From: an uncultured Bacteroidales bacterium
Lineage (GTDB): Bacteria > Bacteroidota > Bacteroidia > Bacteroidales > Bacteroidaceae
NCBI GenBank assembly: GCA_902798615.1
Contig: CADBXL010000006.1
Span: 1 to 64,000, forward strand
DNA: 64,000 bases
Reading direction: 5' to 3'
The notes beneath the pieces were generated by a model. It saw only the letters and a list, made by a program, of their open reading frames with translations. It did no database searches and was not told where the DNA came from. Of this stretch, positions 6,141-61,061 are shown in pieces (within the stretch, counting starts at the first letter, position 1; every line of letters starts with the position of its first letter). The position numbers and the translations under genes are program-made.

Positions 6141-6195
6141 ACGGAACGGACTTACAACGGACTTATAACGGACCTGGAACGGACCTACTTCCTAC
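6141..6195. repeat. 11-bp-period intergenic array R1
   Basis: Four AACGGAC cores start at 6145, 6156, 6167 and 6178, exactly 11 bp apart, with flanking ACTTA/CCTGG variants. It lies inside the arginine operon between argC and argD. The same module recurs at 20519, 44803 and 59755. Confidence 0.9.
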
Positions 6196-6222
6196 CTTGA
6201 AAAACTCATTGTTTTTATTTAC

Positions 6223-7239
6223 TTAGAATGCTGCTGCCTTCAAGTTAAGACCAGCCTTCTCGTCAAGTCCGAACATGATGTTCATATTCTGGACAGCCTG
6301 TCCAACTGCACCCTTCAGGAGATTGTCAATCATAGAGGTTACGACAATCTTACGACCGAACACCTCTACATGAAGCAAGCACTTGTTTGTGTTCACAACC
6401 TGCTTGAGGTCGAGAGCCTTGTCTGAATAATGAGTGAAGGCTGCATCCTTGAAGAAATCCTTATAGAGTGCAACGATAGCATCCTTATCCTGAGCCTTGT
6501 CACAAGTAATAACCTCTGTGCAGAAGATACCACGGGCAAAGTCACCACGGTAAGGGATGAAATCTACGGTTATACCGTCACCCTCAAAACCCTCATCAAG
6601 AGTATCAATAGCATGAGGAGCTGACGCAGGACGAAGTTCGTTCAATGTCTGGCAAATCTCATGAAGATGCTGATGAGTAAAAAGCTTATAGACAGAGAAG
6701 TTATTGTTACGCCAAGAGAAATGGGTTGTTGCGCCCGGCTTCTGACCAGCACCTGTTGATCCAGTAATAGCATTAACAGCAATGTCATGAGTCAAAAGAC
6801 CTGCCTTTGCAAGTGGAAGAAGCCCCTCCTGAATGCAAGTAGCAAAGCAACCAGGATTAGCCAGATGCTGACACTTGGCAATCTCCTCGCGATGAGTCTC
6901 AGGCAAGCCATATACATAGTCGTGGTCGCCTTTTATGCGGAAGTCCTGAGCAAGGTCAATGATCTTCACATTTGCAGGAATGGTATGTTCCTTGAGGAAA
7001 GCCTCACTCTTACCATGACCGAAACAGAAGAACACAACATCTACCTTGTCAAAGGGCATCTCACTTGTGAATTCAAGTTCTGTATCACCGATAAGTCCCT
7101 CGTGAACATCATATACCTTGTTGCCAGCATTAGACTCGCTATTGGCGAATACAATCTCAGCCTCAGGGTGATTAATCAATAATCTTATAAGTTCACCACC
7201 AGTATAACCGGCAGCTCCAAGAATACCTACTCTTACCAT
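6223..7239 (-). CDS. argC: N-acetyl-gamma-glutamyl-phosphate reductase
   Basis: Reduces N-acyl-glutamyl phosphate to the semialdehyde, third step of ornithine synthesis. The 338-aa protein starts with the Rossmann motif GILGAAGYTGGELIRLL and contains the catalytic cysteine in ANPGCFATCIQEGLLPL, then AVNAITGSTGAGQ. It starts 2 bp after the small PspC-domain gene and precedes argD. The N-acylglutamate kinase (argB) and the carbamoyltransferase are not in this window. Confidence 0.96.
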   Translation of the reverse strand: MVRVGILGAAGYTGGELIRLLINHPEAEIVFANSESNAGNKVYDVHEGLIGDTELEFTSEMPFDKVDVVFFCFGHGKSEAFLKEHTIPANVKIIDLAQDFRIKGDHDYVYGLPETHREEIAKCQHLANPGCFATCIQEGLLPLAKAGLLTHDIAVNAITGSTGAGQKPGATTHFSWRNNNFSVYKLFTHQHLHEICQTLNELRPASAPHAIDTLDEGFEGDGITVDFIPYRGDFARGIFCTEVITCDKAQDKDAIVALYKDFFKDAAFTHYSDKALDLKQVVNTNKCLLHVEVFGRKIVVTSMIDNLLKGAVGQAVQNMNIMFGLDEKAGLNLKAAAF

Positions 7240-7241
7240 AT

Positions 7242-7460
7242 TTATTTAATATATCCACCTACCCCAGGCTCTTTCGGAGCAAGAATCCAGACGATGATAT
7301 AAATCCAGAGACTTAAACCTCCAAAGAATACAGCAAGGAATATAACCAGTCGAACCATAAAAGGATCAACATCGAAATACTCAGCGAGTCCACCACAGAC
7401 GCCACCGATTTTCTTGTCTTTCTGAGACAGATAGAATTTCTTTTGCATAGGAATAGTCAT
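7242..7460 (-). CDS. PspC-domain small membrane protein
   Basis: A 72-aa protein with the PspC signature: KIGGVCGGLAEYFDVDP followed by a single hydrophobic segment (VRLVIFLAVFFGGLSLWIYI) and a WILAPKEP tail. PspC proteins elsewhere act in envelope-stress sensing at the inner membrane. Here it is wedged between argG and argC with gaps of 36 and 2 bp, so it should be co-transcribed with arginine genes. A functional link is not obvious. Confidence 0.85.
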   Translation of the reverse strand: MTIPMQKKFYLSQKDKKIGGVCGGLAEYFDVDPFMVRLVIFLAVFFGGLSLWIYIIVWILAPKEPGVGGYIK

Positions 7461-7496
7461 TAGAATCCCTCCATGAAAAGAGGGATATATTATAGA

Positions 7497-8699
7497 TTAA
7501 TCTCTTTCACCTGGGTGAGCAAGATAGTAAGCACGAAGAGGAGTTGATGTAACCTTGATAAAGCCCTTAGCATCCTCTGATGTCCAAGCCTTTGCAGTCT
7601 CACCATACTCACCGAGCTTATTCTTTACAAGGTCGTTAGGGGAATCAACACCAACGGTCTGGAAACCGAGTGGACGGAGCTCAAGCTCAACAACACCTGT
7701 TACGTTACGCTGTGAAGAAGTAAGCATAGCCTCGATATCTGGCATTACAGGCTCAAGATACTGAGACTCGTGAAGGAACATGCCATACCAGTTGCTTACC
7801 TGATCCTTCCAATATTGCTGCCACTTAGAGAGAGTGAACTTCTCAAGGAATCTGTGAGCGCCGATGATAAGCATTGGAGCAGCAGCCTCAAAGCCTACAC
7901 GTCCCTTGATACCTATGATAGTATCACCAACGTGACAATCACGACCTATGCCGTATACTGCACCGATCTTCTCTACAGCCTGAATAGCCTTGATCTTATC
8001 GTCATACTCAACCCCATTTACAGAGCAAAGTTCACCCTTATCAAAACCGAGTTTGAGAGTCTCTGGTCCTTCTTTTGTAACGTGCTTGAGATAAGCAGAC
8101 TCTGGCAAACCCTGCTTTGAGTCAAGAATCTCACCACCACAAATAGAAGTTCCCCAGATACCTACATTATATGAATACTTCAGCTTTGTGAAGTCAGCGA
8201 AATAGCCATTTGCGTTGAGGTAGTCAACCTCTTCCTGACGACTCAGGTTACGGTCACGTGTGAGTGTGATAATCTCCACACCAGGAGCCATAACGAGGAA
8301 AGTCATGTCAAAACGGATCTGGTCATTACCTGCACCTGTTGAACCATGTGCAATAGCATCTGCACCAATCTCCTTTGCATAGCGAGCAATAGCGATAGCC
8401 TGAAAGATACGCTCGGAAGATACAGAGATAGGATAGCAGTTGTTACGGAGAACATTGCCATAAATCATATACTTCAGAGACTTATCATAATACTCTTTAG
8501 TTACATCGAGAGTTACATACTTAACAGCACCAAGTTTATAAGCATTTTCCTCGTTTGCCTTAAGCTGTTCAGCACTAAAACCACCTGTGTTTGCACATGC
8601 AGCATAAACCTCATACCCCATTTCCTTGGTGAGGTACATCACGTTGTAACTTGTGTCAAGGCCACCACTGAAGGCAACCACTACTTTCTTCTTAGCCAT
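7497..8699 (-). CDS. argG: Argininosuccinate synthase
   Basis: ATP-dependent ligation of citrulline and aspartate, the penultimate step to arginine. The 400-aa product begins MAKKKVVVAFSGGLDTSYNV with the PP-loop SGGLDTS. It also has the AHGSTGAGNDQIRFD substrate motif. Length is normal for the family. It lies 24 bp downstream of the GNAT gene and upstream of the PspC gene in the operon. Confidence 0.97.
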   Translation of the reverse strand: MAKKKVVVAFSGGLDTSYNVMYLTKEMGYEVYAACANTGGFSAEQLKANEENAYKLGAVKYVTLDVTKEYYDKSLKYMIYGNVLRNNCYPISVSSERIFQAIAIARYAKEIGADAIAHGSTGAGNDQIRFDMTFLVMAPGVEIITLTRDRNLSRQEEVDYLNANGYFADFTKLKYSYNVGIWGTSICGGEILDSKQGLPESAYLKHVTKEGPETLKLGFDKGELCSVNGVEYDDKIKAIQAVEKIGAVYGIGRDCHVGDTIIGIKGRVGFEAAAPMLIIGAHRFLEKFTLSKWQQYWKDQVSNWYGMFLHESQYLEPVMPDIEAMLTSSQRNVTGVVELELRPLGFQTVGVDSPNDLVKNKLGEYGETAKAWTSEDAKGFIKVTSTPLRAYYLAHPGERD

Positions 8700-8723
8700 A
8701 TTTATTTTTGTTTTTATATTATC

Positions 8724-9353
8724 CTAAAATTGAATACCTCTCAAAGTAAGAGTCTTGATTACATCCTGGAACACTTCACTTGGAGTAGGTTCACCTGTGT
8801 GTGTATCAGGATCATAGAGCATACCTGTACATATACAGAACTTTCTGTTCTTAGCCACCAAGATGTCATGATTGACACATCCCTCGCAGCCACGCCAGAA
8901 AGCATCATCGTCGGTAAGCTGATTGAAAGAGACAGGAACATAACCCAGCTGGGTATTCATCTTCATAACAGCATCGCCACTTGTCAAAGAGAATATCTTT
9001 GCATGAGGCCAACGAACACGCGCCAAAGTGAATGTATAGTTCTTGATACGCTTTGCAACACCCATGCCAAGATAGTCAGGGTGAACAATAAGACCAGAGG
9101 TTGTGACGTATGACTTATTACCCCAAGTCTCTATATAACTAAAACCAACGAACTTATCCCCCAACTCTGTCTGAGTATCTGTGTCAATAGCAAGGATTGC
9201 CTTGCCTTCCTTCATCTTGGTAGCTACGTACTCATGTGTACGTTCTGCAATACCCGTACCACGTTTCTTTGCAGCTGTACGAATAGTGTCAAGTATGGTA
9301 TCAACATACTTCTCATGACTTGCATCAGCAACCAAAACCTTAATATTTGCCAT
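8724..9353 (-). CDS. GNAT-family acyltransferase of the arginine operon
   Basis: A 209-aa GNAT-fold protein. Residues about 80-115 give the acyl-CoA-binding pattern (LIVHPDYLGMGVAKRIKNYT), followed by KMNTQLGYVPVSF. The C-terminus carries a cysteine-rich stretch, WRGCEGC...CICTG. Its position between argR and argG, with no ArgA or ArgJ visible, suggests it supplies the N-acylglutamate (acetyl or succinyl) that starts ornithine synthesis. This is inference from context; the substrate cannot be read from sequence. The start MANIKVLVAD follows argR by 35 bp. Confidence 0.85.
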   Translation of the reverse strand: MANIKVLVADASHEKYVDTILDTIRTAAKKRGTGIAERTHEYVATKMKEGKAILAIDTDTQTELGDKFVGFSYIETWGNKSYVTTSGLIVHPDYLGMGVAKRIKNYTFTLARVRWPHAKIFSLTSGDAVMKMNTQLGYVPVSFNQLTDDDAFWRGCEGCVNHDILVAKNRKFCICTGMLYDPDTHTGEPTPSEVFQDVIKTLTLRGIQF

Positions 9354-9388
9354 TTTCTATTTTAAGGAATTATCTGTATTGTACTTTT

Positions 9389-9862
9389 TTACTGATTACT
9401 TTTTAATGCTGCGGTAATGTTCTCAGACACCTGCTTGATTGGTATCTCCTGATTTATCACCACAAAAATCGTATCATCTCCGGCTATTGTTCCAAGCACT
9501 CCCTCAGGCATAGCTGTATCCAGATGATATGCAATACTACCAGCATGTCCGGGTTTGGTCTTTATAACCCCCATATTTCCAGAGAACTGCATAGAGACAA
9601 AACCAGGAACAGGAGGATTGTCAACCAGAGTATATGCCTGATATACACGCTTGTAAAGAGTTTCCTCAGGCAAAAGATATATAGATCTGCCATCAGCAAC
9701 CATTTTCTTTACAATCTTGAGCTTGTTCATGTCTCGCGAAAGAGTTGACTGAGTAACCGTGAATCCTTCAAGCGCTAATGCCTGTATCACTTCCTCCTGT
9801 GAACTCAATTCCTTACGAGCAATAACAGCTCTCAAAGCCGCCATTCTATCGTTTTTTTTCAT
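9389..9862 (-). CDS. argR: Arginine repressor ArgR
   Basis: Arginine-sensing repressor, normally hexameric. The 157-aa form from ATG 9862 (MKKNDRMAALRAVI) has the N-terminal winged helix (SSQEEVIQALALEGFTVTQS, then TLSRDMNKL) and the C-terminal arginine-binding core (TKPGHAGSIAYHLD, GTIAGDDTIFVV). The frame is open 18 codons further up, but that stretch overlaps the predicted transcription start (-7 box 9894-9901), so 9862 or the ATG at 9844 is the real start. As first gene of the arg/pro operon, downstream of candidate ArgR boxes, it is probably autoregulated. Confidence 0.94.
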   Translation of the reverse strand: MKKNDRMAALRAVIARKELSSQEEVIQALALEGFTVTQSTLSRDMNKLKIVKKMVADGRSIYLLPEETLYKRVYQAYTLVDNPPVPGFVSMQFSGNMGVIKTKPGHAGSIAYHLDTAMPEGVLGTIAGDDTIFVVINQEIPIKQVSENITAALKSNQ

Positions 9863-9893
9863 CAATATGCAGGAATTATTCTTTTTCGGAGTG

Positions 9894-10010
9894 CAAAAGT
9901 ACAAACATTTCTGCATATATCCAAATTTTATTCAGAAAATATGAATATTTCTATATAAATAATGCATATCCGTTATTTTTAATATGCATATTTCTGCATA
10001 TAATTGCATA
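9894..10010 (-). promoter_or_regulatory. arg operon promoter with candidate ArgR boxes
   Basis: The minus-strand -7 box TACTTTTG (9894-9901) and -33 TTTG (9922-9925) are 20 bp apart. A TGCATA box (9912-9917) lies in the spacer. Further upstream are TGCATA at 9963-9968 and three more at 9985, 9995 and 10005, exactly 10 bp apart. TATGCATA is self-palindromic and AT-rich like known ARG boxes. Placement upstream of argR supports an autoregulatory operator; direct proof is lacking. Confidence 0.75.
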
Positions 10011-10018
10011 TTGCGATT

Positions 10019-10693
10019 CTATTTCGCAAATACCTTCTCAATATCACCAGAATAAGTATTCATTCTTATGCAAATCCTATCTCCTGCAGAATATTCTTTT
10101 AGAGGGACACTAAGATATACCGTCTGAGTATAGTATTCAGGAATAGCATCCTGATCATGATGAAGAGTCAGATAATAGGTCTTGCTACCATCTGCCATTG
10201 TCTCCACAGAATTAACAACAAGCCCTACCTTATGAACAGCATCTTCATTCTCTGCATTTCCAACCATCAATCCAAGCGACATATTAATGTAACTGCTATT
10301 CTGAGCCTTCCATGCGCTGATAAACTTGACAGGATCAACTTTAAGAGTCAACGAAGACTGTTTGTCTAAAGGTTTCAAGACATAAACCCGTTTCTGCGAC
10401 TTCAAGTCAATGAAATTGTTCCCTTCCTTATTATAATATAGCATCATGCGATACGTGGTATCCCTATGCTCCATATTCTCAGGAAGCAAGTATGATGATG
10501 ATACCGCAAGCCGTTCGTCAGAATCAGTAACAATACTCTTTATCTCCCTACCCACGACATGCATATCCACCATCTCTGCCATAAGGTAAGAGAGGGAGGT
10601 ATCACCCGTTTCGTATGGCTCAACAGTACATGAAACCATAAGGAAAAAGGCACTTACGAGCAACAAGCTCCTATGCAAGTAAACGTATCTCAA
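10019..10693 (-). CDS. NigD-like lipoprotein
   Basis: A 224-aa secreted lipoprotein with an N-terminal hydrophobic segment ending in a lipobox (FFLMVSC, Cys about 22). The body has the two-part beta-rich layout of NigD-like proteins of Bacteroidetes (LKPLDKQSSLTLKVD and the C-terminal VYLSVPLKEY...GDRICIRMNTYSG). The function of this family is unknown beyond surface location. It overlaps the acyltransferase gene by 4 bp (ATGA-type coupling) and is the last gene of the PASTA-rluD-ddl-acyltransferase operon. It ends only 8 bp before the arg operator boxes. Confidence 0.75.
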   Translation of the reverse strand: MRYVYLHRSLLLVSAFFLMVSCTVEPYETGDTSLSYLMAEMVDMHVVGREIKSIVTDSDERLAVSSSYLLPENMEHRDTTYRMMLYYNKEGNNFIDLKSQKRVYVLKPLDKQSSLTLKVDPVKFISAWKAQNSSYINMSLGLMVGNAENEDAVHKVGLVVNSVETMADGSKTYYLTLHHDQDAIPEYYTQTVYLSVPLKEYSAGDRICIRMNTYSGDIEKVFAK

Positions 10694-11865
10694 TCTTTCT
10701 GAACCTTTGCATTAAGGTAATTACGAGCAGGGTTCGAATACATGGTAAGCAACCTCTCACGAAGGAATGCCATATCCGGATTCGGGACACGAACCTTTGA
10801 AAGTCTCTCGGCAACATAAGCCTCAAACACTTTCACATCAGCCTCTGTATATTTATCGCTATGAGCCTTCGGAGTACCCTCTATCTCATCAAGCGCAATC
10901 CAGTTACCCGGATAGAGCCTATAGCGTCTATGTATTTCCTCATCAATATGCTTGGCTACAGCTGCAAAGACTTCCTGCTTTGGCATATCGGCAGGCAGAG
11001 TATCAAGCCAGGCATCAATACAAGGAGCTGCCTCATAATGCAGGTGTCCCTTCTTGCCGAAGATACCCGTCTTCATATTGTCAAGGTCATCCTGTTTGCT
11101 CTTCTTCCAACCCACAACATCTCTCTTGAACTGGAATTCCTCTGCCTTGAGATAGTCGCACGGATCATACTCGTATGATATAGCGAGCGGAACGATATGC
11201 AGATGCTTCAAGCGGTCAATAACACTACCCTCGCCTCCCATGGCGAACATCTTCAGTACAGCCTCCTGAGTTCTGTCGTCTGAATCCTTGGCACGTCCCT
11301 CACGCTGGGCAATCCATACATTCTCGCCCTTCTCATTCACGGCAAAGTGGATATACTGGCTCATAAGTATGCTTGAGCGGAGCATTTCCTTCGGAGACAA
11401 CCCCCTTCGGACGGTGAACGATTTGTTCAGCCTTACAAGTTTCTTGATCCAAGGATATATAAGAAGATTATCTCCAATACCAATCTCACAGGTATGGGCG
11501 AAATCATTCTTGATGAGCAGTACATCAAGAAAAGCAGAATCAAGAACTATATCACGATGGTTTGAAAGGAAGATATAGCTCCCTTTCCTGTCAAGGCTCT
11601 TGTCAAAACCGAAACCGCTTGACTTGGTGGTCTTGAATTTGACATAGTTAACAAGAGGCTTCATCAGTCTTATCTGGAAGTCCTGCGAGTTTTTCACCCT
11701 CCAGAGAAGCATTCGTATCAATCCGTTACGCACAGACTTAGGCAGCCAAGGAACAAGTCCCTTCAGCACAAGCGAAAACTGCCTGTCTTTAAGCAGTTCG
11801 TCTATGACTACAGGAACTTCCTCTGGCTCATAAGGACGGATGTCATCGAAATCGTGAATTGTCAT
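10690..11865 (-). CDS. PlsC-like glycerolipid acyltransferase
   Basis: A 391-aa protein of the glycerol-3-phosphate/1-acyl-glycerol-3-phosphate acyltransferase superfamily, acting at the cytoplasmic membrane. Block I appears as FLSNHRDIVLD, a variant spacing of the usual HX4D. Block III appears as QREGRAKDSDDRT. These place the active site in the first half; the second half is a family-specific extension with no recognised motif. It lies 17 bp downstream of ddl and overlaps the lipoprotein gene. The actual acceptor is unknown. Confidence 0.82.
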   Translation of the reverse strand: MTIHDFDDIRPYEPEEVPVVIDELLKDRQFSLVLKGLVPWLPKSVRNGLIRMLLWRVKNSQDFQIRLMKPLVNYVKFKTTKSSGFGFDKSLDRKGSYIFLSNHRDIVLDSAFLDVLLIKNDFAHTCEIGIGDNLLIYPWIKKLVRLNKSFTVRRGLSPKEMLRSSILMSQYIHFAVNEKGENVWIAQREGRAKDSDDRTQEAVLKMFAMGGEGSVIDRLKHLHIVPLAISYEYDPCDYLKAEEFQFKRDVVGWKKSKQDDLDNMKTGIFGKKGHLHYEAAPCIDAWLDTLPADMPKQEVFAAVAKHIDEEIHRRYRLYPGNWIALDEIEGTPKAHSDKYTEADVKVFEAYVAERLSKVRVPNPDMAFLRERLLTMYSNPARNYLNAKVQKD

Positions 11866-11882
11866 TTTCTCTTTTCTTCTGA

Positions 11883-12884: not shown

Positions 12885-12906
12885 TTTAATGTATTGTATT
12901 TTTATT

Positions 12907-13995: not shown

Positions 13996-13997
13996 AA

Positions 13998-14026
13998 TTC
14001 CTTATTGTTACCTGTTACTTGTTACC
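13998..14026 (+). repeat. Heptad repeat copy P1
   Basis: 29-bp element; on the minus strand it reads GGTAACA-AGTAACA-GGTAACA-ATAAGGAA (heptads). It fills the gap between the PASTA gene stop and the rluD start inside an operon. Identical or near-identical copies lie at 19155, 20457, 20617, 20734, 24035 and 25649. Confidence 0.92.
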
Positions 14027-14033
14027 ACTTGTG

Positions 14034-14693: not shown

Positions 14694-14715
14694 TGTCTAT
14701 GTGCATATTTTGGTA

Positions 14716-14746: not shown

Positions 14747-14774
14747 ATTTCTCGCGTACTTTTTTATTTATATA

Positions 14775-14816: not shown

Positions 14817-14833
14817 TGACTCAAGAGCCATAA

Positions 14834-14989: not shown

Positions 14990-15063
14990 TGTTGTTCTAT
15001 TTTATTTGTTATTTTTTTGTTTCTAAACTTTTGTCAAAAGGCGCTTTTACGCAATTCAGGGTG

Positions 15064-16911: not shown

Positions 16912-17748
16912 ATGTGGAGAGTAAAAGAATTCTATGAGCCAGAGGATTTCAAGGAAGAAACCTCAAAGGCTGAAAACACAAAGAATAATGAGCCGAACGA
17001 AGCTCACAATACGGAATGCCCATCGCCTTCCGGCTCCCTCCCTACGGGGGAGGGCGGGGGGAGAGGCAGCTTCCCTATCACCTCATGGGCAGAGGACGAC
17101 CGACCTCGCGAGAAGCTTGCACGCATAGGAGCAGAGAACCTGTCAGATGCAGAGCTTATCGCCATCCTCATAGGCTCGGGCAATACAAGCGAGTCAGCCG
17201 TTGACCTTATGAAGCGCATCCTCAAGGATTGCGACAACAACCTCGGCATCCTCGGCAGGAAAAGCATCTCCGAACTCACCGCATACAACGGCATAGGCGA
17301 GGCGAAAGCCATTTCAATACTCGCTGCCTGCGAACTGGGCAAACGTCGTGAGCATGAGGATAAACTCGAACGCCTCGACCTCAGCCAGCCTGACGCCATC
17401 TACCAGCACCTGTTGCCGAAGATGCGCGACCTCGACGTGGAAGAGGCCTACATAGTGCTGATGAACAATAACTACAAGCACATCAAGACCGTGCGCCTCT
17501 CACATGGGGGAATAACCGAAACGGCCGTTGACGTGCGCGTAATAATAAAGGAAGCGGTATTATGCAACGCCACCATCGTTGCCCTTGCCCACAATCATCC
17601 GAGTGGCAATATCCATCCAAGCGGCCACGACGACCAGATCACCCGACAGGTGAAATCCGCCTGCGATGCCATGCGCCTGCATTTTGCCGACCATATCATC
17701 GTGACTGACGGAGCCTACTACTCATATCACGAGAGTGGGAAACTCTAG
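16912..17748 (+). CDS. radC: RadC/JAB-domain protein with repeat-encoded N-terminal segment
   Basis: A 278-aa RadC-family protein. The helix-hairpin-helix part begins WAEDDRPREKLARIGAENLS (about residue 59), and the JAB metalloprotease-like motif is LAHNHPSGNIHPSGHDD. The family is linked to DNA repair or transformation, but its biochemical role is unsettled. Residues about 38-52 (SPSGSLPTGEGGGRG) are encoded by a 43-bp GC-rich repeat; a perfect inverted copy begins directly after the stop codon. No alternative start codon exists in frame between the repeat and the conserved domain, so the repeat must be translated if the gene is expressed. Confidence 0.9.
   Translation: MWRVKEFYEPEDFKEETSKAENTKNNEPNEAHNTECPSPSGSLPTGEGGGRGSFPITSWAEDDRPREKLARIGAENLSDAELIAILIGSGNTSESAVDLMKRILKDCDNNLGILGRKSISELTAYNGIGEAKAISILAACELGKRREHEDKLERLDLSQPDAIYQHLLPKMRDLDVEEAYIVLMNNNYKHIKTVRLSHGGITETAVDVRVIIKEAVLCNATIVALAHNHPSGNIHPSGHDDQITRQVKSACDAMRLHFADHIIVTDGAYYSYHESGKL
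17025..17067 (+). repeat. GC-rich palindromic repeat Q1 (inside radC)
   Basis: 43-bp element containing the palindromic core CTCCCTACGGGGGAG and G-rich arms. It is translated in radC. Its exact inverted copy lies at 17749-17791. Confidence 0.93.
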
Positions 17749-17791
17749 GCCTCTCCCCCCGCCCTCCCCCGTAGGGAGGGAGCCGGAAGGC
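17749..17791 (-). repeat. GC-rich palindromic repeat Q1' (inverted copy)
   Basis: Perfect 43/43 reverse complement of the element at 17025-17067, starting at the base after the radC stop codon and ending 30 bp before the DUF59 gene. It may also form a transcript hairpin. Confidence 0.93.
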
Positions 17792-17821
17792 GAAAAAAGT
17801 AATTAGTAAAAAACAACAGAT

Positions 17822-20485: not shown

Positions 20486-20517
20486 CCGATATGGCTTCGC
20501 TATTATCCCATTCTAAG

Positions 20518-20600
20518 GAACGGACCTACAACGGATTTACAACGGACCTGAAACGGACCTAGAGCGAAGGCACAGCGAAGGCATAGCGAAGGCACAGAGG
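20518..20600. repeat. 11-bp-period intergenic array R2
   Basis: Four AACGGA cores at 20519, 20530, 20541 and 20552 are followed by three GCGAAGG cores at 20564, 20575 and 20586. Each series has an exact 11-bp period. The array lies between heptad repeats P3 and P4. Confidence 0.92.
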
Positions 20601-20616: not shown

Positions 20617-20645
20617 GGTAACAGGTAACAAGTAACAATAAGGAA
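20617..20645 (-). repeat. Heptad repeat copy P4 (inverted relative to P3 and P5)
   Basis: GGTAACA-GGTAACA-AGTAACA-ATAAGGAA on the plus strand. It makes inverted pairs with P3 (enclosing array R2) and with P5 (enclosing an AT-rich 88 bp). Confidence 0.9.
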
Positions 20646-20733
20646 TTGTGTGCATGGCCAAGAATTTTACTGAAAATTTCTAAGGAGTTTATATACCTTA
20701 TTATATATAGAATAATAAAATCAGGGCAGTCGT

Positions 20734-20762
20734 TTTCTTATTGTTACCTGTTACTTGTTACT
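20734..20762 (+). repeat. Heptad repeat copy P5
   Basis: Overlaps the stop codon of the membrane-protein gene at 20758, so the gene's TAA lies in the repeat. Confidence 0.9.
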
Positions 20763-33233: not shown

Positions 33234-33316
33234 CAATAAATATCTTATACTATAAAATATTTATCATTTCAGTCTTTAGTTTTTTTACATTTTTAACAGA
33301 TTACGCTTTGCCTTCA

Positions 33317-33480
33317 TTATGTCTTCGCTCTACCTTCGCTCTTCCTTCGCTATAAATCCGAACCAAACTCGATGCAAGTCCGTTCCAGGTCCCATTCTAT
33401 ATGGGAGTTTCATCGAGTTTGGTTGGGAAGAAGATGGGACTTACAAGGGAACTACATAGGACCTACTTGGGAAGAACTAC
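33317..33480. repeat. 11-bp-period intergenic array R5 with inverted arms
   Basis: TTCGCT cores at 33324, 33335 and 33346 (11 bp apart). Then a 14-bp inverted pair AACCAAACTCGATG (33361-33374) / CATCGAGTTTGGTT (33411-33424). Then four 11-bp steps at 33434, 33445, 33456 and 33467. It lies 3' of the TPR gene and upstream of the DUF4954 promoter. The inverted pair recurs in R7, and an inverted AACGGACTT module is embedded. Confidence 0.88.
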
Positions 33481-44800: not shown

Positions 44801-44850
44801 AGAACGGACTTACAACGGACCTATAACGGACTTACAACGGACCTACATAT
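44801..44850. repeat. 11-bp-period intergenic array R3
   Basis: AACGGA cores at 44803, 44814, 44825 and 44836, exact 11-bp period, alternating ACTTAC and CCTATA tails. It lies between the GH43 stop codon and the promoter of the six-gene operon. Confidence 0.92.
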
Positions 44851-51351: not shown

Positions 51352-51466
51352 AAATACCATTAAATTACCATTAAAATACTATTAAGATACCATTAAAATA
51401 CCATTCGCAATGGTAATATAATGGTATTATTATGGTAATATTATGGTATTATAATGGTATTATCAT
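51352..51466. repeat. Palindromic 11-bp array R6 (5 + 5 units)
   Basis: ACCATT-type cores at 51356, 51367, 51378, 51389 and 51400 are followed after a short centre by AATGGT/TATGGT cores at 51409, 51420, 51431, 51442 and 51453. Both series have an exact 11-bp period. The two halves form a large imperfect palindrome. It lies upstream of both the aquaglyceroporin and the sppA region. Confidence 0.93.
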
Positions 51467-51719: not shown

Positions 51720-51761
51720 AGCATTTTTGCCGTTATACTTGCAAATTATCAATATTTTTTG

Positions 51762-53614: not shown

Positions 53615-53627
53615 TTAAACCGCAGTT

Positions 53628-54842: not shown

Positions 54843-54846
54843 AGCC

Positions 54847-54877
54847 AAAGCCCCCCATCCCCCCGAGGGGGAGCTTT
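54847..54877 (+). repeat. GC-rich palindromic repeat Q3
   Basis: AAAGCCCCCC... ...GGGGGAGCTTT element directly after lpxK. It pairs with the inverted copy at 54901-54932. Confidence 0.9.
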
Positions 54878-54900
54878 TTGATTGCATAATACTATCTAAA

Positions 54901-54932
54901 GATTCCCCCTTGGGGGGCTAGGGGGCTGTTTT
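54901..54932 (-). repeat. GC-rich palindromic repeat Q3'
   Basis: Inverted partner of Q3 after a 23-bp spacer, ending 3 bp before the thiL start codon. The pair can fold into a long hairpin in the lpxK-thiL intercistronic region. Confidence 0.9.
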
Positions 54933-54935
54933 AAT

Positions 54936-56003
54936 ATGGAAATAAACAAACTCGGTGAGTTCGGTCTTATTGACCACCTCACAAAAGACATAGAGATAAA
55001 GAATGCATCCACACTCAAGGGCGTGGGTGACGATTGTGCAGTATTCGACCACAGCAAGGATTTCAAGGACAGCGTGTCGCTCGTCTCTACCGATATGCTA
55101 ATGGAAGGCGTGCATTTCGACCTTACATACGTGGACATGAAACACCTTGGCTACAAGTCTGCTATGGTGAATATCTCAGATATCTTCGCCATGGGCGGAA
55201 CACCACGCCAGATGGTAGTAAGTATCGCCCTGTCAAAACGTTTCAGCGTAGAAGACCTTGAGGATTTCTACATCGGACTCAGAATGGCGTGTGATAAATG
55301 GAACGTGGATGTTGTCGGAGGTGATACGACATCTTCCCTTACAGGTCTCGCCATCTCCATTACTGTAATGGGAGATGCAGCTAAGGAGGATGTGATATAC
55401 CGTTCAGGAGCGAAGGATACAGACCTTATCTGCGTATCAGGAGATCTTGGAGCTGCATATTGTGGCTTGCAGGTTCTTGAGCGAGAGAAAACCGTTTACT
55501 ACCAACAGTTGAAAGAAGCTCAGCAGAAGGGCAAGGACACATCAAACATCGAGTTTGCCCCTGAGTTTGCAGGCAAGGAATATCTCCTTGAGCGTCAACT
55601 TCAACCCGAGGCTCGTGGTGATGTGTTGAAGCAGCTACGCGAGGCAGGCATACGCCCGACAAGTATGATTGACATTTCCGACGGTCTTTCATCCGAGATA
55701 ATGCACATCTGCAAGAACAGTAACACGGGATGCCGAATTTTCGAGAAGGAGATTCCTATCGACTACCAAACCGCTGTTATGGCAGAGGAAATGAACATGA
55801 ACCTCACCACCTGCGCATTAAATGGCGGGGAAGACTATGAGCTGCTCTTCACTTGCTCTATCGGTGACTATGAGAAAGTTAAGAACCTTGACGGCATTCG
55901 CGTCATAGGACATATCACCAAGCCGGAACTTGGTTATCAGCTCATTACTCGCGACGGACAGGAGTTCGAACTAAAGGCACAAGGTTGGAATCATTGCGAG
56001 TAA
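54936..56003 (+). CDS. thiL: Thiamine-monophosphate kinase
   Basis: Phosphorylates thiamine monophosphate to the active diphosphate. The 355-aa protein has the PurM-like fold markers: GEFGLIDHLT, LKGVGDDCAVFD, STDMLMEGVHFDL, NISDIFAMGGTPRQMVVSIA, IDISDGLSSEI and NGGEDYELLFTC. ATG 54936 is close behind repeat Q3', which leaves little room for a conventional ribosome binding site. Other thi genes are not in the window. Confidence 0.96.
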   Translation: MEINKLGEFGLIDHLTKDIEIKNASTLKGVGDDCAVFDHSKDFKDSVSLVSTDMLMEGVHFDLTYVDMKHLGYKSAMVNISDIFAMGGTPRQMVVSIALSKRFSVEDLEDFYIGLRMACDKWNVDVVGGDTTSSLTGLAISITVMGDAAKEDVIYRSGAKDTDLICVSGDLGAAYCGLQVLEREKTVYYQQLKEAQQKGKDTSNIEFAPEFAGKEYLLERQLQPEARGDVLKQLREAGIRPTSMIDISDGLSSEIMHICKNSNTGCRIFEKEIPIDYQTAVMAEEMNMNLTTCALNGGEDYELLFTCSIGDYEKVKNLDGIRVIGHITKPELGYQLITRDGQEFELKAQGWNHCE

Positions 56004-56036
56004 AGTTCTTTGTTTAGGAATTAGAGTTTAGAGGAA

Positions 56037-57152
56037 TTGAATTTTGAGGACATCATAGGACAACGCGAGATGGCAGAACGCCTTCGCAATCTGGCAGACA
56101 ATAACCGTTTGCCACATGCCATTATGCTTTGCGGCCCAAAGGGGGCAGGCAAGATGGCGCTTGCAATCGCGTTGGCAAGTCATCTGCTTGGAACAACTGA
56201 TCAGGCGTGGCATATGCTCAACAATTTCCAGCACCCGGACTTGCATTTCGCATTCCCTATTATTCGTCCCAAAGGCGCATCAAGCGATAAGAAGTTTGAT
56301 TCCGACGACTATATGTCAGAATGGCTGGAGATGCTGAGGGCCGATGGTGCATACTTTGATTTGCCCACTTGGCTTGCAAAAATAAAAGTGGAAAATCAGC
56401 AGAGTAACATTCCAGTAGCCGAGAGCGACCGTCTAACCCGCCTTTTCTTAATGAAATCAAATCAAGGCGGCAAGAAAATCGCAATTATCTGGTTGCCAGA
56501 GAAGATGAACATCGAGTGTGCCAACAAGATGCTGAAACTCATTGAGGAACCACCAGCAGAGTCCCTGTTCATCATGGTCAGCAACCACCCAGAGCAGTTG
56601 TTGGAGACAACAAGAAGTCGTGTTCAGCGCTTTGATGTCAAACCGATAGCACAAGAGGACATCATCGACGCCCTTATGAACAAACGAGGCCTGAACCAAA
56701 ACGATGCCACCAGAACGGCACGTATTGCAAACGGCAACTGGCTCAAAGCAATATCACTCCTTGAACCGGGAAACGAAGAGGCTCTATTCTTCGACATGTA
56801 TGTAATGCTCATGCGATTAGCATACACACGCAAAGTGAGCGATTTGAAGAAATGGTCTGACCAATGTGCCTCTTTAGGACGCGAGAAACAGATTCGCATG
56901 CTGGAGACCTTCCAAAGACTCACACGCGAATACTTCATGTATAACTTCCATCAGCCATCCATCACATATATGACTGAGGAAGAAGAGAATTTTGCAAGAA
57001 AATTCGCTCCATTCATCAATGAGAATAACATTATTGGCATGTACGAACTCTTCCAGAGAGTGATTCGCGACATCGGACAGAATGCCAATCCAAAGATACA
57101 GTTCTTCGATCTATCGATGAAGATGGCAGTATTTATTCATAAGCAGAAGTAA
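56037..57152 (+). CDS. holB: DNA polymerase III delta' subunit
   Basis: Clamp-loader component of the replicase. The 371-aa protein starts MNFEDIIGQREMAERLRNLA (TTG start at 56037) and has the AAA+ P-loop MLCGPKGAGKMALAIALASH. The sensor region IEEPPAESLFIMVSNHPEQL, then LETTRSRVQRFDVKPI follows. The zinc-finger cysteines of many DnaX/HolB proteins are not evident, as expected in some delta' lineages. It is followed after 10 bp by ricT, a neighbour pair common in many bacteria. Confidence 0.92.
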   Translation: MNFEDIIGQREMAERLRNLADNNRLPHAIMLCGPKGAGKMALAIALASHLLGTTDQAWHMLNNFQHPDLHFAFPIIRPKGASSDKKFDSDDYMSEWLEMLRADGAYFDLPTWLAKIKVENQQSNIPVAESDRLTRLFLMKSNQGGKKIAIIWLPEKMNIECANKMLKLIEEPPAESLFIMVSNHPEQLLETTRSRVQRFDVKPIAQEDIIDALMNKRGLNQNDATRTARIANGNWLKAISLLEPGNEEALFFDMYVMLMRLAYTRKVSDLKKWSDQCASLGREKQIRMLETFQRLTREYFMYNFHQPSITYMTEEEENFARKFAPFINENNIIGMYELFQRVIRDIGQNANPKIQFFDLSMKMAVFIHKQK

Positions 57153-57162
57153 TTAAACACAA

Positions 57163-58371
57163 ATGGATTATAAAGATATGACATTTACTCTCGCAACAGG
57201 CTGTGGACGCGGTCTGTGCCGGAAAAGTTGCTCACGTTCTGACCATCAGCTCAACGTGTACGACTGGCTTGCTGACATTTCCGGCAATAATGAGAGTACT
57301 GACCTTGTTGAGGTTCAGTTTAAGAATACACGTAAGGCATACTACCACAATATCAACAGACTTGACTTGAAAAAAGGCGACTGGGTTGCCGTTGAAGCCA
57401 CACCAGGTCACGATATCGGTGTTGTTACGCTTACCGGTCGTCTCGCCATCATGCAGGTAAAGAAAGCAAACCTCAAGTCTGCTGACGATATAAAGCGCGT
57501 ATATCGCTTTGCTCGCGACGTGGATATGGATAAGTATAATGAGGCAAAGGCACGCGAGCACGACACCATGATTCAGAGTCGACAGATTGCCAATGAACTT
57601 GGCCTGAACATGAAAATAGGCGATGTGGAATATCAGGGAGACGGCAATAAGGCCATCTTCTACTACATAGCCGACGAACGCGTGGACTTCCGACAGCTCA
57701 TCAAGGTTCTGGCAAACACATTCCACGTGCGTATTGAGATGAAACAGATAGGTGCACGTCAGGAGGCTGGTCGTATTGGAGGTACAGGACCTTGCGGACG
57801 AGAGCTTTGTTGTGCTACTTGGATGAAGAATTTCTCAAGCGTTTCCACAACAGCGGCACGCTTACAGGATATTTCTCTCAACCCTCAGAAACTCGCAGGT
57901 ATGTGTGCAAAACTGAAATGCTGTCTGAACTATGAGGTTGACTGTTACATGGAAGCTGGCAAGAAGATGCCTCCTAAGGATACCGTTCTCCAGACAGCCG
58001 ACAGCGACTACTACCTCTTCAAGCAGGATATCATTGCCGGTATCGTCACATACTCTACCGACAAGCGACTTGCAGCCAACCTTGAGACTATTCCTGCAGA
58101 ACGAGCTGTGGAGATTATCGAGATGAACAAGCGTGGAGAAAAGCCTTTACAGCTCACCTCTGATGGTACAGACAAAGCACCTCAGAAGCCAAAGGATCTT
58201 CTCGCTGATGCCGATATTGCCCGCTTTGACAAGGCAAAGAAGAAGAAAAAGAAGAAAAACAAAAATCATGGTGACAACAAAGGTGCAAACAACGACCAAG
58301 GCAGAGGCAACGCTGATCAGCAGAACAAGCCAAACGGCAATCACCAACAGAATCACCATCACAAGGGATAA
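57163..58371 (+). CDS. ricT: RicT/PSP1 C-terminal-domain protein
   Basis: A 402-aa relative of B. subtilis RicT (YaaT), an Fe-S-containing factor that influences RNase Y action. The PSP1 core is clear: FKNTRKAYYHN near the N-terminus, RIEMKQIGARQEAGRIGGTG, then PCGRELCCATWM and KLAGMCAKLKCCLNYE with the conserved cysteines. The C-terminal ~60 residues are lysine- and then Asn/Gln/His-rich (KAKKKKKKKNKNHGDNKGAN), a low-complexity tail. It precedes gldH, a pairing typical of Bacteroidetes. Confidence 0.92.
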   Translation: MDYKDMTFTLATGCGRGLCRKSCSRSDHQLNVYDWLADISGNNESTDLVEVQFKNTRKAYYHNINRLDLKKGDWVAVEATPGHDIGVVTLTGRLAIMQVKKANLKSADDIKRVYRFARDVDMDKYNEAKAREHDTMIQSRQIANELGLNMKIGDVEYQGDGNKAIFYYIADERVDFRQLIKVLANTFHVRIEMKQIGARQEAGRIGGTGPCGRELCCATWMKNFSSVSTTAARLQDISLNPQKLAGMCAKLKCCLNYEVDCYMEAGKKMPPKDTVLQTADSDYYLFKQDIIAGIVTYSTDKRLAANLETIPAERAVEIIEMNKRGEKPLQLTSDGTDKAPQKPKDLLADADIARFDKAKKKKKKKNKNHGDNKGANNDQGRGNADQQNKPNGNHQQNHHHKG

Positions 58372-58420
58372 AAGAGTAAAGTATAAAGAGTAAGGTTAAA
58401 AGAGGACAGTAGGAAGGATA

Positions 58421-58891
58421 ATGCGAAAGCTATTTATATACACCCTATATTGTGTTTGTATCGTAATGGGATTTATCTCATGCGATACAAACACCCCTTA
58501 TTACCAATACGCACATACCCCTATCGACGGATGGGAAAAGAACGACACTCTAAGATATGAAGTACAGCCTCTGAAAAAAGGTGGAGAGCATCAGATAACA
58601 GTTGCTCTGCGACTAAATGGAGCATATCCTTTCCGCAAACTATACTTGATTATGCAACAGGATATATTCCCAAGACTGCAAAGCAAAACCGATACCATCT
58701 GCTTTGATGTCACAAGTAAAGAAGGAAGATTCACAGGCAACGGCATCTCATACTATCAATATACCGTACCAGTATGCAGAGAGCATTACATGGATAAAGA
58801 CTCTATCCACATCACCATACGTCACGCCATGAAGCGCGACATTCTACCAGGAATATCAGATATTGGAGTAAAACTGGAGAGAATATACTGA
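58421..58891 (+). CDS. gldH: Gliding-motility lipoprotein GldH
   Basis: A 156-aa lipoprotein with signal and lipobox (CIVMGFISC, Cys about 21). The GldH-type body has YYQYAHTPIDGWEKNDTLRY, LRLNGAYPFRKLYLIMQQD and a C-terminal ITIRHAMKRDILPGISDIGV. GldH is required for gliding in Flavobacterium but is kept in non-gliding Bacteroidales, where its role is unclear. Its place after ricT fits the usual order. Confidence 0.9.
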   Translation: MRKLFIYTLYCVCIVMGFISCDTNTPYYQYAHTPIDGWEKNDTLRYEVQPLKKGGEHQITVALRLNGAYPFRKLYLIMQQDIFPRLQSKTDTICFDVTSKEGRFTGNGISYYQYTVPVCREHYMDKDSIHITIRHAMKRDILPGISDIGVKLERIY

Positions 58892-58937
58892 TTATCAAGC
58901 AGAAAACACATCTTTTTGGAAGTTTTAACTATTATTC

Positions 58938-58969
58938 TTTGGTTATTTGACCAAAATTACTTATTTTTG
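58938..58969 (+). promoter_or_regulatory. Promoter of the RlpA-like gene
   Basis: -33 TTTG (58938-58941), 20-bp spacer, -7 TATTTTTG (58962-58969). Leader to the gene is about 120 nt. Confidence 0.75.
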
Positions 58970-59125
58970 TCCCCCGAAAAGATTGAATACAAGACAAATA
59001 GTGATTAATTTAGAATAATTTGGCGTACCAAACTATTATATTTTCATCACTTGTCAGGAATTCTTCATTTACTATACTACAACCTAAAATTGTAACAAAC
59101 GAAAAAGCTTGCTATTATAATATAT

Positions 59126-59695
59126 GTGTTGTTTACCGCTTTGCTGTGTACATACTCACAACAAAGGGGAAAAGCCTCATATTATTCTAAAAGAGCAACA
59201 GGAGCAAAGACGAGTAGCGGAACCCTTCTGCATAACGACTCACTTGTTTGTGCCCACCGCACACATCCATTCGGAACAAAACTTCTTGTGAGAAACCTGA
59301 CAAACGACAAAGAGGTTATAGTAACAGTTGTTGACAGAGGACCATATAAAAAAGGAAGGATTATCGACCTCACCTATGCCGCAGCCGAACAGCTTGGTAT
59401 GATAAGCAAAGGCGTAGTGGCTGTAGAGGTTAGTGTATATCCAGACAAAGGTGTACCTTACGCATTGGATCCAGAATCTCTCCCAGAGATTGACCTTGAA
59501 GAGCATGAGAATGCTACTACAGATGAGGGATATAATGCTGTCTGGATAAAAAGCCAACAAAAAAATGAAACAAAAGAATTAGCACAAAATCTCATAAAAG
59601 AGGACAAGAGTACAAAGTCCTCTGAAGTTAAGAAAACCCAACCAACAACAACTAAAAAGAAAAGTACCACAATAACCAAGAAAAAGAGGAGGTAA
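59126..59695 (+). CDS. rlpA: RlpA-like double-psi beta-barrel protein
   Basis: A 189-aa (or longer) secreted protein with the RlpA barrel: GKASYYSKRATGAKTSSGTL, AHRTHPFGTKLLVRNL, VVDRGPYKKGRIIDLTYAAA, then EQLGM. RlpA proteins bind or cleave denuded peptidoglycan. The basic tail (KKTQPTTTKKKSTTITKKKR) is low-complexity. From GTG 59126 the signal peptide lacks its charged front. The frame continues upstream as KKLAIIIYVLFTALLCTYSQ, a normal signal, but the codon where ATG is expected (59099) is ACG. Either ACG or the GTG is used, or the start has mutated. Confidence 0.85.
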   Translation: MLFTALLCTYSQQRGKASYYSKRATGAKTSSGTLLHNDSLVCAHRTHPFGTKLLVRNLTNDKEVIVTVVDRGPYKKGRIIDLTYAAAEQLGMISKGVVAVEVSVYPDKGVPYALDPESLPEIDLEEHENATTDEGYNAVWIKSQQKNETKELAQNLIKEDKSTKSSEVKKTQPTTTKKKSTTITKKKRR

Positions 59696-59709
59696 GACTC
59701 CTTTTTTTT
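59687..59709 (+). terminator. Terminator overlapping the rlpA stop codon
   Basis: AGGAG (59687-59691) / CTCCT (59698-59702), 6-nt loop containing TAA, followed by eight T. Short but well placed. Confidence 0.7.
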
Positions 59710-59749
59710 ATTTACTTACCTCCATCATGCCTTTGCTTTTTGTCCCAAT

Positions 59750-59800
59750 ATAGGAACGGACTTACAACGGATTTACAACGGACCTGAAGGGGAAGCATAG
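59750..59800. repeat. 11-bp-period intergenic array R4
   Basis: AACGGA cores at 59755, 59766 and 59777 followed by degenerate GGGGAAGCATAG/GTGAAGTGG units, 11-bp period. It lies downstream of rlpA. Confidence 0.88.
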
Positions 59801-59943
59801 TGAAGTGGATGTTTTTCGAGAAAAACACAAAAAAACATTTCAAACCGAGTATTGAGTAGACTACAGATGAAAGCATTGAGACAAATTGCTCAATAATTGA
59901 AAAAAAATCCCCTTAAAGGTGTTAGTTTATCAGATTTTATTTA

Positions 59944-60115
59944 TACTTTTGTCATGTCTTATTACGATTTTATTTGTTTTTGGATTCACGACACAAAGAT
60001 AAGTAAAAAAAATAACATGACAATACTACGAGCAATTTTTTGTTACTCTGAATGTTATGAAATGTCGATAGGAGATTGTATAAACAATTCTACAGGAACA
60101 ATAAAATTACATTAA
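59944..60115 (+). other. Promoter and doubtful small ORF upstream of the broken membrane gene
   Basis: TACTTTTG (59944-59951) looks like a -7 box. Downstream, ATG 60017 opens 32 codons (MTILRAIFCYSECYEMSIGD...) ending at 60115, 5 bp before the next ORF. Longer versions of this frame begin inside or before the promoter and are unlikely. I cannot say whether the peptide is real; the region is AT-rich with no known motif. Confidence 0.35.
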
Positions 60116-60120
60116 CAAAA

Positions 60121-60578
60121 ATGAAGTTTAACATATTGAAACCTTTTGATTATTTCTTTTACAGAAAATATATATATTTTGAGAAGAAAAAGGATATGCC
60201 TTTTTTTCAAGTATACTCATGACGTCGATGCTTTTTGCATCGTTGACATCTTCTATTTGGTTAAATCTACGATATGTGATGATTATTTATTCTGAAGATA
60301 TAGTAGTGTTCAAAAACTTTCGCAGAGAATACACTTTGTCTATGGCTATAGTCGCTTTTACATATTATATGATTACCTATTTTCTGTATAAAAAAAGGAA
60401 AGAAAAAGTTTTAAAAGAATTTAAGAATTCTAAGTATAATAGGATTCTTCCATACTGGGTTTTCCCTACGATTGCTTTCATCACATTTTTTCTTGGACTT
60501 ATCCCTGCAATATATCTTAAAGACATCCTTGAAGAACATAATATGGAGGGAATTGTATTCCGCTGGCTTTTTTCATAA
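60121..60578 (+). pseudogene. Small membrane protein interrupted at a T-tract
   Basis: ATG 60121 reads MKFNILKPFDYFFYRKYIYF, then EKKKDMPFF, and stops at 60222. From 60219 another frame continues with two strong membrane helices (SMAIVAFTYYMITYFLYKKR, WVFPTIAFITFFLGLIPAIY). Adding one T to the seven-T run at 60201-60207 joins them into one ~152-aa protein (DMPFFSSILMTSMLFASL) with a normal first helix. The gene is therefore frameshifted, slippage-switched, or mis-sequenced. The intact form would be a small integral membrane protein of unknown function. Confidence 0.6.
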
Positions 60579-60924
60579 ACCCAGAATAACTCTATTCTTC
60601 CCACGCTTCCATCAATTCCTCGAGAGTTCCTTGGTGGCGTAAGAAGTACAACCCTTGGTAATAGCATCCGTGGAGTTTCAAAAACAAACAGATTGGGCAC
60701 ACGCTATCACAATGCATCAAAAGCATTGTTCGAGCAACTATATCGATACATCGGATTCTATTATTAAATTAATAAAAATGGATAAAAATTTATATATAAA
60801 GATTTCGGCATTAGATTATGCAATTTTAAAATCTCATTCCCTCTAACCCTCCCCTTCTATCAATCTTTAGACACTTTGTCTTTTATGCTGAGATAAGAGG
60901 CTTTTTCTTTCCTTTAGGTCTGTT

Positions 60925-61061
60925 GTTCCTCCTATGCTCCTCCCTTCTACCTCCTAACCAAACTCGATGATAATACCATTATAATACCATTAAGGATAAG
61001 AGTTTCATCGAGTTTGGTTAGGAGGAACATAGGAGGATGATGGGTAGAACATGGGAGTTTG
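60925..61061. repeat. 11-bp-period palindromic array R7
   Basis: Left arm CCTCC-type 11-mers (60925, 60936, 60947), the arm AACCAAACTCGATG (60957-60970), a centre with two ATACCATT units 11 bp apart (cores 60975, 60986), the inverted arm CATCGAGTTTGGTT (61006-61019), then GGAGG-type 11-mers at 61018, 61029, 61040 and 61051. It lies downstream of two converging genes. It shares the 14-bp arms with R5 and the centre with R6. Confidence 0.9.

Follow-up and report, generated by a model that had tools for sequence, protein, structure and literature searches.

Published work on bacterial satellites has left open how a tandem repeat can keep an exact size while its sequence changes. The question is raised by seven intergenic loci, named here by position (6141, 20518, 33317, 44801, 51352, 59750 and 60925), in a stretch of 64,000 nucleotides (the window) from an uncultured Bacteroidales bacterium (assembly GCA_902798615.1, contig CADBXL010000006.1). 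At each of them short words, often unlike one another, are set 11 bp apart. The window is the start of this contig (C6 below), one of the 55 contigs of a draft genome of 3.46 Mb, referred to as the host genome; the host is a gut bacterium, probably of the rumen, and belongs to the Prevotella family. Five close relatives with the same vocabulary were compared with it, all of them uncultured Prevotellaceae/Bacteroidales metagenome-assembled genomes: RUG14644 (G234), RUG12352 (G095), RUG14682 (G135), SRR12081293_bin.68 (G257) and SRR12081301_bin.40 (G182). RUG in these names stands for rumen uncultured genomes. With a short frame that is common to unlike words, recurs at orthologous sites and differs between species of one genus, the relation between size and sequence can now be tested.

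One 11-bp frame for unlike words

A sequence-only reading of the window had reported an exact 11-bp period at the seven loci, which was borne out at all of them by direct reading and by Tandem Repeats Finder (Table 1); outside them the program gave a single weak period-11 row in the window (14998-15021, 2.1 copies). When self-matches were counted as a cluster at >=24/33, that is at least 24 matches in 33, lag 11 gave five clusters in the window (6141, 20518, 33317, 44801 and 51352) and lags 7-10 and 12-14 gave none; over the remainder of the range 5-30, lag 6 gave two, lag 15 one, lags 21 and 22 two each, and the rest none. Loci 59750 and 60925 fall below this threshold, being too short or too compound, and are real by reading and by Tandem Repeats Finder. 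The sequence-only reading had been made to depend on a lag-11 signal elsewhere in the genome, and the signal was present in every contig run examined. In 464 kb of whole contig runs (C6 to 164 kb, 140 kb of C1 and 160 kb of C13, picked after a list of pair-pattern matches had been seen) there were 39 lag-11 clusters, against 0, 3, 1, 3 and 0 at lags 8, 9, 10, 12 and 13. Lag 7 gave 35 clusters, which form a separate class of arrays, and lags 14, 21, 22 and 33 were raised as multiples. By proportion, the genome would hold about 300 arrays. The pair pattern AACGGACYTNNAACGGAYYT had 152 matches in the host genome and 0 for its reversed control.

The words that make up the arrays include AACGGAC, ATGGGAC, ATAGGAC, CGATGGA, ATTGGAC, AATGGTA, AGCGAAGG and ATAAGAG, and they are mixed within arrays. 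Their common core is GGA. Intergenic GGA trimers lie 11 bp apart 112 times against a background of about 12, and pairs at 22, 33 and 44 bp number 79, 70 and 30; no comparable GGA peak at 11-bp spacing was seen in coding DNA. Different words 8-60 bp apart were then compared, with their positions normalised to GGA: 422 of the 625 intergenic pairs fell at 0 mod 11 (next residue, 30), against 85/694 in coding DNA. The non-identity of the units at a constant period is therefore correct, and was the strongest part of the sequence-only reading. ATCGAGTTTG kept to one residue mod 11 in 44/44 pairs, and in 506 kb of G234, with genes left in, 298 of 821 unlike-word pairs were at 0 mod 11. A profile of 521 units from 123 intergenic GGA chains, most of which span four (48) or five (38) units, yielded the weak consensus N-A-W-N-G-G-A-N-N-W-R, with GGA as the GC pole of the unit and AT-rich positions at -3, -2, +5 and +6. 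This profile, the word frame, part of the reading of words and of the lag-11 signal, and the counts of copies, looser two-armed arrays, inverted 13-mers and GC skew also draw on stretches beyond the 464 kb that were chosen for pattern hits (862 kb in all for the copies and the looser two-armed arrays).

With genes called as open reading frames (ORFs) by length only, 40 of the 44 lag-11 clusters were intergenic and one lay at an edge. A coding repeat was rejected because 11 is not a multiple of 3 and only three clusters were inside predicted genes. Gaps of at least 120 bp held arrays in 9/25 convergent, 4/33 divergent and 23/113 tandem cases (p 0.06, 0.23 and 0.84), and the lack of a clear preference among them speaks against a promoter or terminator element. 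Nor is there a preferred gene strand: in the tandem gaps of the host genome AACGGAC points with the neighbouring genes 12 times and against them 10 times. Among 44 arrays the orientation agrees with the local GC skew in 20 and disagrees in 24. A replication-polarity motif (KOPS-like) was rejected as well; the orientation had seemed biased by contig among the matches listed, yet the agreement with GC skew is as just given and that with the local gene-strand majority is 23/44. This indifference of orientation to genes and to GC skew points to a feature of the DNA duplex rather than of RNA.

Many arrays are built of a TCC arm, a centre and a GGA arm, which goes beyond the sequence-only reading. 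Roughly one arm in two is accompanied by a partner arm, and in these cases the orientation flips at a central dyad, with TCC units on the left and GGA units on the right. In the 464 kb, which contain 29 TCC and 36 GGA chains, the order TCC-then-GGA was found 18 times and the reverse order 0 times. The relatives gave 13:0, a count that takes in orthologues of arrays of the host genome, and 9 TCC and 15 GGA chains alone. The centre gap between the arms was 3-6 mod 11 in all of these pairs and, when chains were defined more loosely over the 862 kb, in 37 of 43 two-armed arrays (two of which are shifted duplicates). Both arms share one consensus, inverted, and the 11-bp frame is mostly kept across the centre too. 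Inverted 13-mers (ACCAAACTCGATG and kin) formed 18 pairs, of which four are orthologues of locus 33317 (host genome, G234, G182 and G257); their inner distance was 36 (15 pairs), 47 (two) or 25 (one), which is 3 mod 11 in 18/18, and the words inside are mostly unlike. Halves without a partner numbered 8/26 on the left and 7/25 on the right. Some 7-bp arrays are also two-armed, for instance TAATTAC followed by GTAATTA-like words at C6 104584-104711.

Orthologous gaps and other species

Both flanks were found in at least one relative for four of the seven loci, with a flank identity of 73-100%. Locus 6141 has four framed units in 4/4 relatives (G234, G182, G135 and G257). At locus 33317 an array is present in 5/5, similar in G257, G095 and G135 and made of other words in G234 and G182, and at locus 44801 in 4/5, of the AACGGA type in G234, G257 and G135, of ATGGGA/ATAGGA/ATCGGA in G095, with none in G182. 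Locus 20518 could be compared with one relative (G234), which also has the array. Thus, at the four comparable loci most orthologous gaps hold arrays while the words change. Between the host genome and G234, 14 orthologous gaps were found for 85 arrays, and four of them show a length difference of 11 or 22 bp.

The core changes slowly at these sites. Over 20 pairs of host and relative, which cover 10 different loci (two of them named twice), substitutions were found at 19/323 GGA positions (5.9%), 207/870 other unit positions (23.8%) and 848/4765 positions in the rest of the gap (17.8%), the last figure taking in replaced, poorly aligned stretches. Positions -3 (7/109) and +5 (14/109) are slow besides GGA. 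Three of the 14 gaps shared with G234 were too long (C6 128205, C1 65078 and C8a 13878) and were left out of the alignments and the count; C6 33302 and C1 42979, whose gap lengths differ by at least 60, were left out of the G234 substitution pairs. In six arrays picked by eye as shift-free, the counts were 1/102 for GGA, 15/272 for other unit positions and 143/1805 for the flanks (GGA against flank, p 0.006).

The AACGGAC pair had 0 matches in 59 other genomes of one draw (35 of the same genus and 24 of the same order). Of 398 genomes of the genus, 15 contained a slightly looser pattern, which exceeded three matches only in the host genome (G000, 170), G234 (171), G257 (115), G182 (54), G135 (52) and G095 (26). 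The vocabulary is therefore clade-limited rather than species-specific, being abundant in six related genomes with at most three matches in any other of the 398. When no word was specified and only five GGA at steps of 11 bp were required, 111/398 genomes matched, many of them once or twice, and the host genome 164 times against 6 for the reversed control; other species have 11-bp words such as GGAGTTAAAGG and GGACTTACTTG. Nine further genomes of the genus, sampled over 284 kb at the starts of contigs, gave only two weak lag-11 clusters, both in G009, which has long 7-bp arrays. Five GGA at 10-bp steps were sought in 22 genomes, with 0 matches in the host genome and the five relatives and 211, 42 and 33 in G225, G087 and G073, where the reversed control is equally high (231, 129 and 36) and so gives no test of the core word; at 13-bp steps there were three matches in all. 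For G225 and G087 the stretches were likewise selected for pattern hits; at lags 7-13, and not counting long ORFs, they contained 6, 0, 12, 12, 8, 0, 0 and 5, 0, 3, 6, 2, 0, 0 arrays, respectively. Several of the periods in these two genomes (L172-L188) have words of their own, TAGGAAGTTC at 10, TTAACTCCCCT at 11 and CTATAGAAA at 9. Period 11 is thus not universal, since G009 has 7 and G225 and G087 have 7, 9, 10 and 11.

Proposed explanations: binding platform, repeat family and others

The arrays may be a DNA platform for a protein that reads A..GGA..T cooperatively, once per 11 bp, a reading that we favour tentatively and with less than even confidence. A small DNA-binding protein would line the duplex in a cooperative manner, each protomer occupying 11 bp, its main contact being GGA, helped by A(-3) and T(+5), and the packing would resemble that of ribbon-helix-helix centromere proteins coating iteron arrays. 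A low sequence demand outside the core would permit fast turnover of words, by substitution, gain or loss of units and copying between loci, with the frame kept. The likeliest use would be a nucleoid-organising or local-domain role at intergenic sites. Phased protein binding had been suggested in the sequence-only reading, and it is compatible with the rigid frame, the slow GGA, the arm polarity of this clade, the lack of a strand preference and the weak covariation of the arms (see below); binding as such, its cooperativity and a role in the nucleoid are what we infer. That 11 bp is one helical turn, as had also been suggested, holds approximately. With 10.5 bp per turn, units set strictly 11 bp apart drift out of phase, and the periods of two other species of the genus, 7, 9, 10 and 11 but not 8, 12 or 13, are insufficiently explained by helical phasing alone.

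A number of observations weigh against the binding platform. As to the frame and the dyad, the word list for the unlike-word test was drawn up after the arrays had been seen; many chains have no partner (11 TCC and 18 GGA chains alone in the 464 kb); six of the 43 centre gaps measured with looser chains lie outside 3-6 mod 11; and the polarity is reversed, GGA then TCC, in G337 (L126) and G225 (L173). Arrays of CGATGGA and AATGGTA fold as hairpins, with z about -4 to -9 against shuffles, and other species of the genus use periods of 7, 9 and 10. At orthologous sites, no gap was found for three of the seven loci (51352, 59750 and 60925), the 20518 array differs from that of G234 by a 3-bp off-frame gap near its end, and only one of the four length differences of 11 or 22 bp, the single unit at C6 100860, falls within the array. 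In the shift-free arrays GGA differs from other unit positions with p 0.08 only, and the slowness of GGA can be explained by exchange of units or by misalignment of whole units, which could mimic conservation because the units of the vocabulary usually carry GGA. No binding protein turned up, and no search by family was made. Finally, when each array was taken with 250 bp on either side, 71 of the 85 regions had at least 90 bp in common with another place in the 862 kb; the counts of frame and polarity therefore lack independence and may trace to a small number of founders. The arms that stand alone, about half of the total, and the one in four length differences that lies within an array slightly lowered our confidence in the binding platform and slightly raised that in the alternative considered next.

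Equally likely is a selfish or neutral repeat family that evolves concertedly. Founder arrays would have spread in MITE-like composites and been homogenised by slippage and gene conversion, and the frame, the polarity and GGA would be inherited, not selected. The shared copies fit this explanation, as do four aligned copies of one element of several hundred bp with the array at one end, a vocabulary that is common within the clade and that most other members of the genus lack, and the clear one-unit change of length inside the array at C6 100860. It is less easily reconciled with the substitution of GGA below that of the flanks in shift-free orthologues and with the maintenance of a single frame across very different words. 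There is also no transposase tied to the arrays: an array lies within about 1.5 kb at 2/12 loci with a Y1 transposase (a third, L168, has only a low-complexity lag-11 stretch), which would be about the background rate. The host genome has two Y1 matches, and L163, the only one of the two inspected, has an in-frame stop and no array. With few Y1 genes and arrays near so few of them, mobility of the RAYT/REP kind is unsupported.

An improbable explanation for the arrays at large is RNA structure, in which transcribed stems with the 11-nt repeat of the A-form would serve mRNA processing, stability or termination. The helical repeat of the A-form is indeed 11 bp, shuffled sequences fold less well than the CGATGGA and AATGGTA classes, and arrays are somewhat commoner between convergent genes. 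Against this, z was below -3 in 14/40 intergenic arrays on the plus strand (16 on either strand) and in 23/93 control gaps on one strand, and the AACGGAC arrays mostly have folding z values near zero, a few reaching -4 to -5. Here, and in the comparisons of shared copies and of gaps between the host genome and G234, arrays in predicted coding sequence were left out. Complementarity of the arms outside GGA/TCC was 3.44, 3.79 and 3.58 of 8 within a locus and 3.05, 3.21 and 3.05 with arms swapped between loci (p 0.08, 0.011 and 0.013); as this is barely above the swapped arms, the covariation is weak. Furthermore, 8/18 inverted 13-mer pairs are mismatched at position 6, the gene strand is not preferred, and Rfam at the gathering threshold matched nothing in the window except 16S rRNA at 1-193, with no known structured RNA at the arrays. 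The 11-bp frame is kept more than the pairing of the arms. By folding, covariation and mismatches, a base-paired stem as the general principle is rejected for most arrays and retained for the CGATGGA and AATGGTA classes; RNA stems fit a minority of arrays.

Least likely of all is intrinsic DNA mechanics, in which phased G/C and A/T blocks would by themselves curve the DNA or ease its bending, without a dedicated protein: the GC pole and AT-rich positions of each unit and the use of 9, 10 and 11, but not 8, 12 or 13, by two other species favour it, whereas a strict 11 drifts over 4-5 units against the helical turn, periods of 7 and 9 are out of phase, and curvature alone needs neither GGA nor arm polarity.

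The binding platform can be taken further, to several species of the genus, whose genome-wide intergenic arrays would have a clade-specific vocabulary in a strict 7-, 9-, 10- or 11-bp frame. Each frame would then mark the length of DNA covered by a protein that coats it cooperatively, and the arrays would act as a scaffold of the chromosome that evolves fast, comparable in bacteria to centromeric satellites, with size conserved and sequence not. We regard this extension as doubtful.

Related repeats and features of the window

The sequence-only reading knew of no named element with these properties, which is broadly right, with the proviso that a close kind has been published: the constant-size, variable-sequence bacterial tandem repeats of Subirana and Messeguer, whose units measure 20-23 or 52 nt and are repeated four times or more (PMC8161180). 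In the view of the authors, the constant size may be required by a DNA-binding protein that polymerises, or the repeats may be transcribed into RNA (PMC8161180). Those repeats and the present arrays have in common a strict size, several sequence families per genome, a non-coding position and a short kept sequence. The sequences of both are of limited spread, with specificity to one species as the published mark and the clade as the extent found here; the present arrays differ in their 11-bp unit, short arms, mixture of unlike words and, often, a dyad with fixed arm polarity. Their basic period is 11, with lag 22 as its multiple, and so lies outside the published sizes of 20-23 and 52 nt. Full-text literature searches, with most subscription journals outside their coverage, gave, among the papers listed (20 of 872 in one broader search), none that describes 11-bp intergenic repeats in Prevotella/Bacteroidetes by its title or the opening of its abstract. 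The arrays are an 11-bp compound variant of the constant-size, variable-sequence repeats, the closest known kind.

Other systems resemble the arrays in part. REP/BIME elements, which go with a RAYT transposase, are dispersed intergenic inverted repeats in hundreds of copies. The arrays share this dispersal, form and number, and differ from REP/BIME in lacking a clear link to a Y1 transposase at the 12 loci inspected, in their multi-unit 11-bp arms and in a pairing that is mostly not conserved. The parS iterons of plasmid pSM19035 have a size of 7 bp. They are coated cooperatively by a small ribbon-helix-helix protein (PMC5016525, where a reference title names heptad repeats), as are the 11-bp iterons of plasmid R1 parC (PMC9426499). 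The arrays are like these centromeres in being tandem, directional and short, with about 11 bp as in R1 parC; unlike them, with one or few plasmid sites beside a par operon and proven binding, they occupy hundreds of chromosomal intergenic sites (par adjacency was not searched). MacGregor (2015) described intergenic direct repeats of the heptamer TAACTGA, patchy between species and found in some Bacteroidetes, with unit-step indels in two cyanobacteria; in the type genome most of them lie directly ahead of a start codon (PMC4679880). The likeness lies in the many short intergenic direct repeats and the patchy occurrence; the 7-nt unit with one main word contrasts with the 11-bp frame and dyad here.

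Table 1. Arrays with an 11-bp period in the window; Tandem Repeats Finder (TRF) rows are those of period 11.
Position	Strand	Feature	Evidence
6145..6188	+	four AACGGACYTNN units, GGA arm	sequence reading; TRF 6145-6188
20496..20597	+	compound array: short left part TTCGCTATTATCCCATT, centre, four AACGGA units, three AGCGAAGGCAN units, same frame	TRF 20519-20561, 20563-20597
33302..33479	unassigned	two-armed compound array: CTTCGCT units, inverted 14-mers AACCAAACTCGATG (33361) / CATCGAGTTTGGTT (33411), GGGA units	TRF 33323-33351
44803..44847	+	four AACGGACYTAN units	TRF 44803-44847
51352..51463	unassigned	two-armed hairpin-like array: five TACCATTNNNN units, CGC centre, five AATGGTANNNN units with variants	TRF 51352-51405, 51409-51463
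59755..59783	+	short array, three AACGGAYYT units	TRF 59755-59783
60925..61057	unassigned	two-armed compound array: GTTCCTCC/CTCC units, inverted 14-mers AACCAAACTCGATG, two ATAATACCATT units, GGA units	TRF 60970-60992

The reuse of modules between loci, also claimed in the sequence-only reading, was confirmed for four of them and not for GGAGGAAC, which is present only at 60925 as an inverted pair. AACGGACYT occurs at 6141, 20518, 44801 and 59750 and inverted at 33376; AGCGAAGG occurs at 20518, inverted at 33317, and at four isolated places (22411, 23722 and 55409 on the plus strand and 32015 on the minus strand); ATACCATTA is common to 51352 and 60925; and AACCAAACTCGATG is found at 33317 and 60925, both times as an inverted pair. 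The first array is flanked by two minus-strand genes, an aminotransferase class III (4937-6076) and a semialdehyde dehydrogenase (6223-7239). The array at 51352 has folding z values of -4.2 and -3.6 on the two strands.

The array pattern was also found in six stretches on five viral contigs, of which L135 and L137 hold just two adjacent units and may be chance. Arrays of at least three AACGGA-type units are present on IMG/VR contigs classed as viral, in L134 and L136 (one contig) and in L138; PHROGs named 0/7 proteins from the contigs of these three, so host DNA on the contig is possible, and 1/8 of the proteins tried over the viral contigs. Phage origins can lie inside the initiator gene. On another viral contig, 11-bp repeats (AACGGACTTAG, L139:5353-5396) lie inside a gene that matches DnaD-like/O-like replication initiators, and their likeness to the host word may be chance.

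Composite repeats at C2 ~78000-78900, several hundred bp long and with copies in C14, C8 and C11, join an 11-bp array to further repeated modules, among them CTCGTCACCC inverted repeats and GGGGGGTGCACTTTT. Within the window, the start of the 16S rRNA gene is on the minus strand and is cut by the contig end. A dispersed element of about 145 bp (20618-20761), whose ends bear GTTACCTGTTACTTGTTAC-like 7-bp repeats, adjoins the 20518 array, and the relatives have many copies that are about 79-91% identical. Inverted 49-bp stretches at 17019-17067 and 17747-17795 have many nearly perfect copies in the relatives; our guess is that they are the ends of an insertion sequence of about 780 bp.

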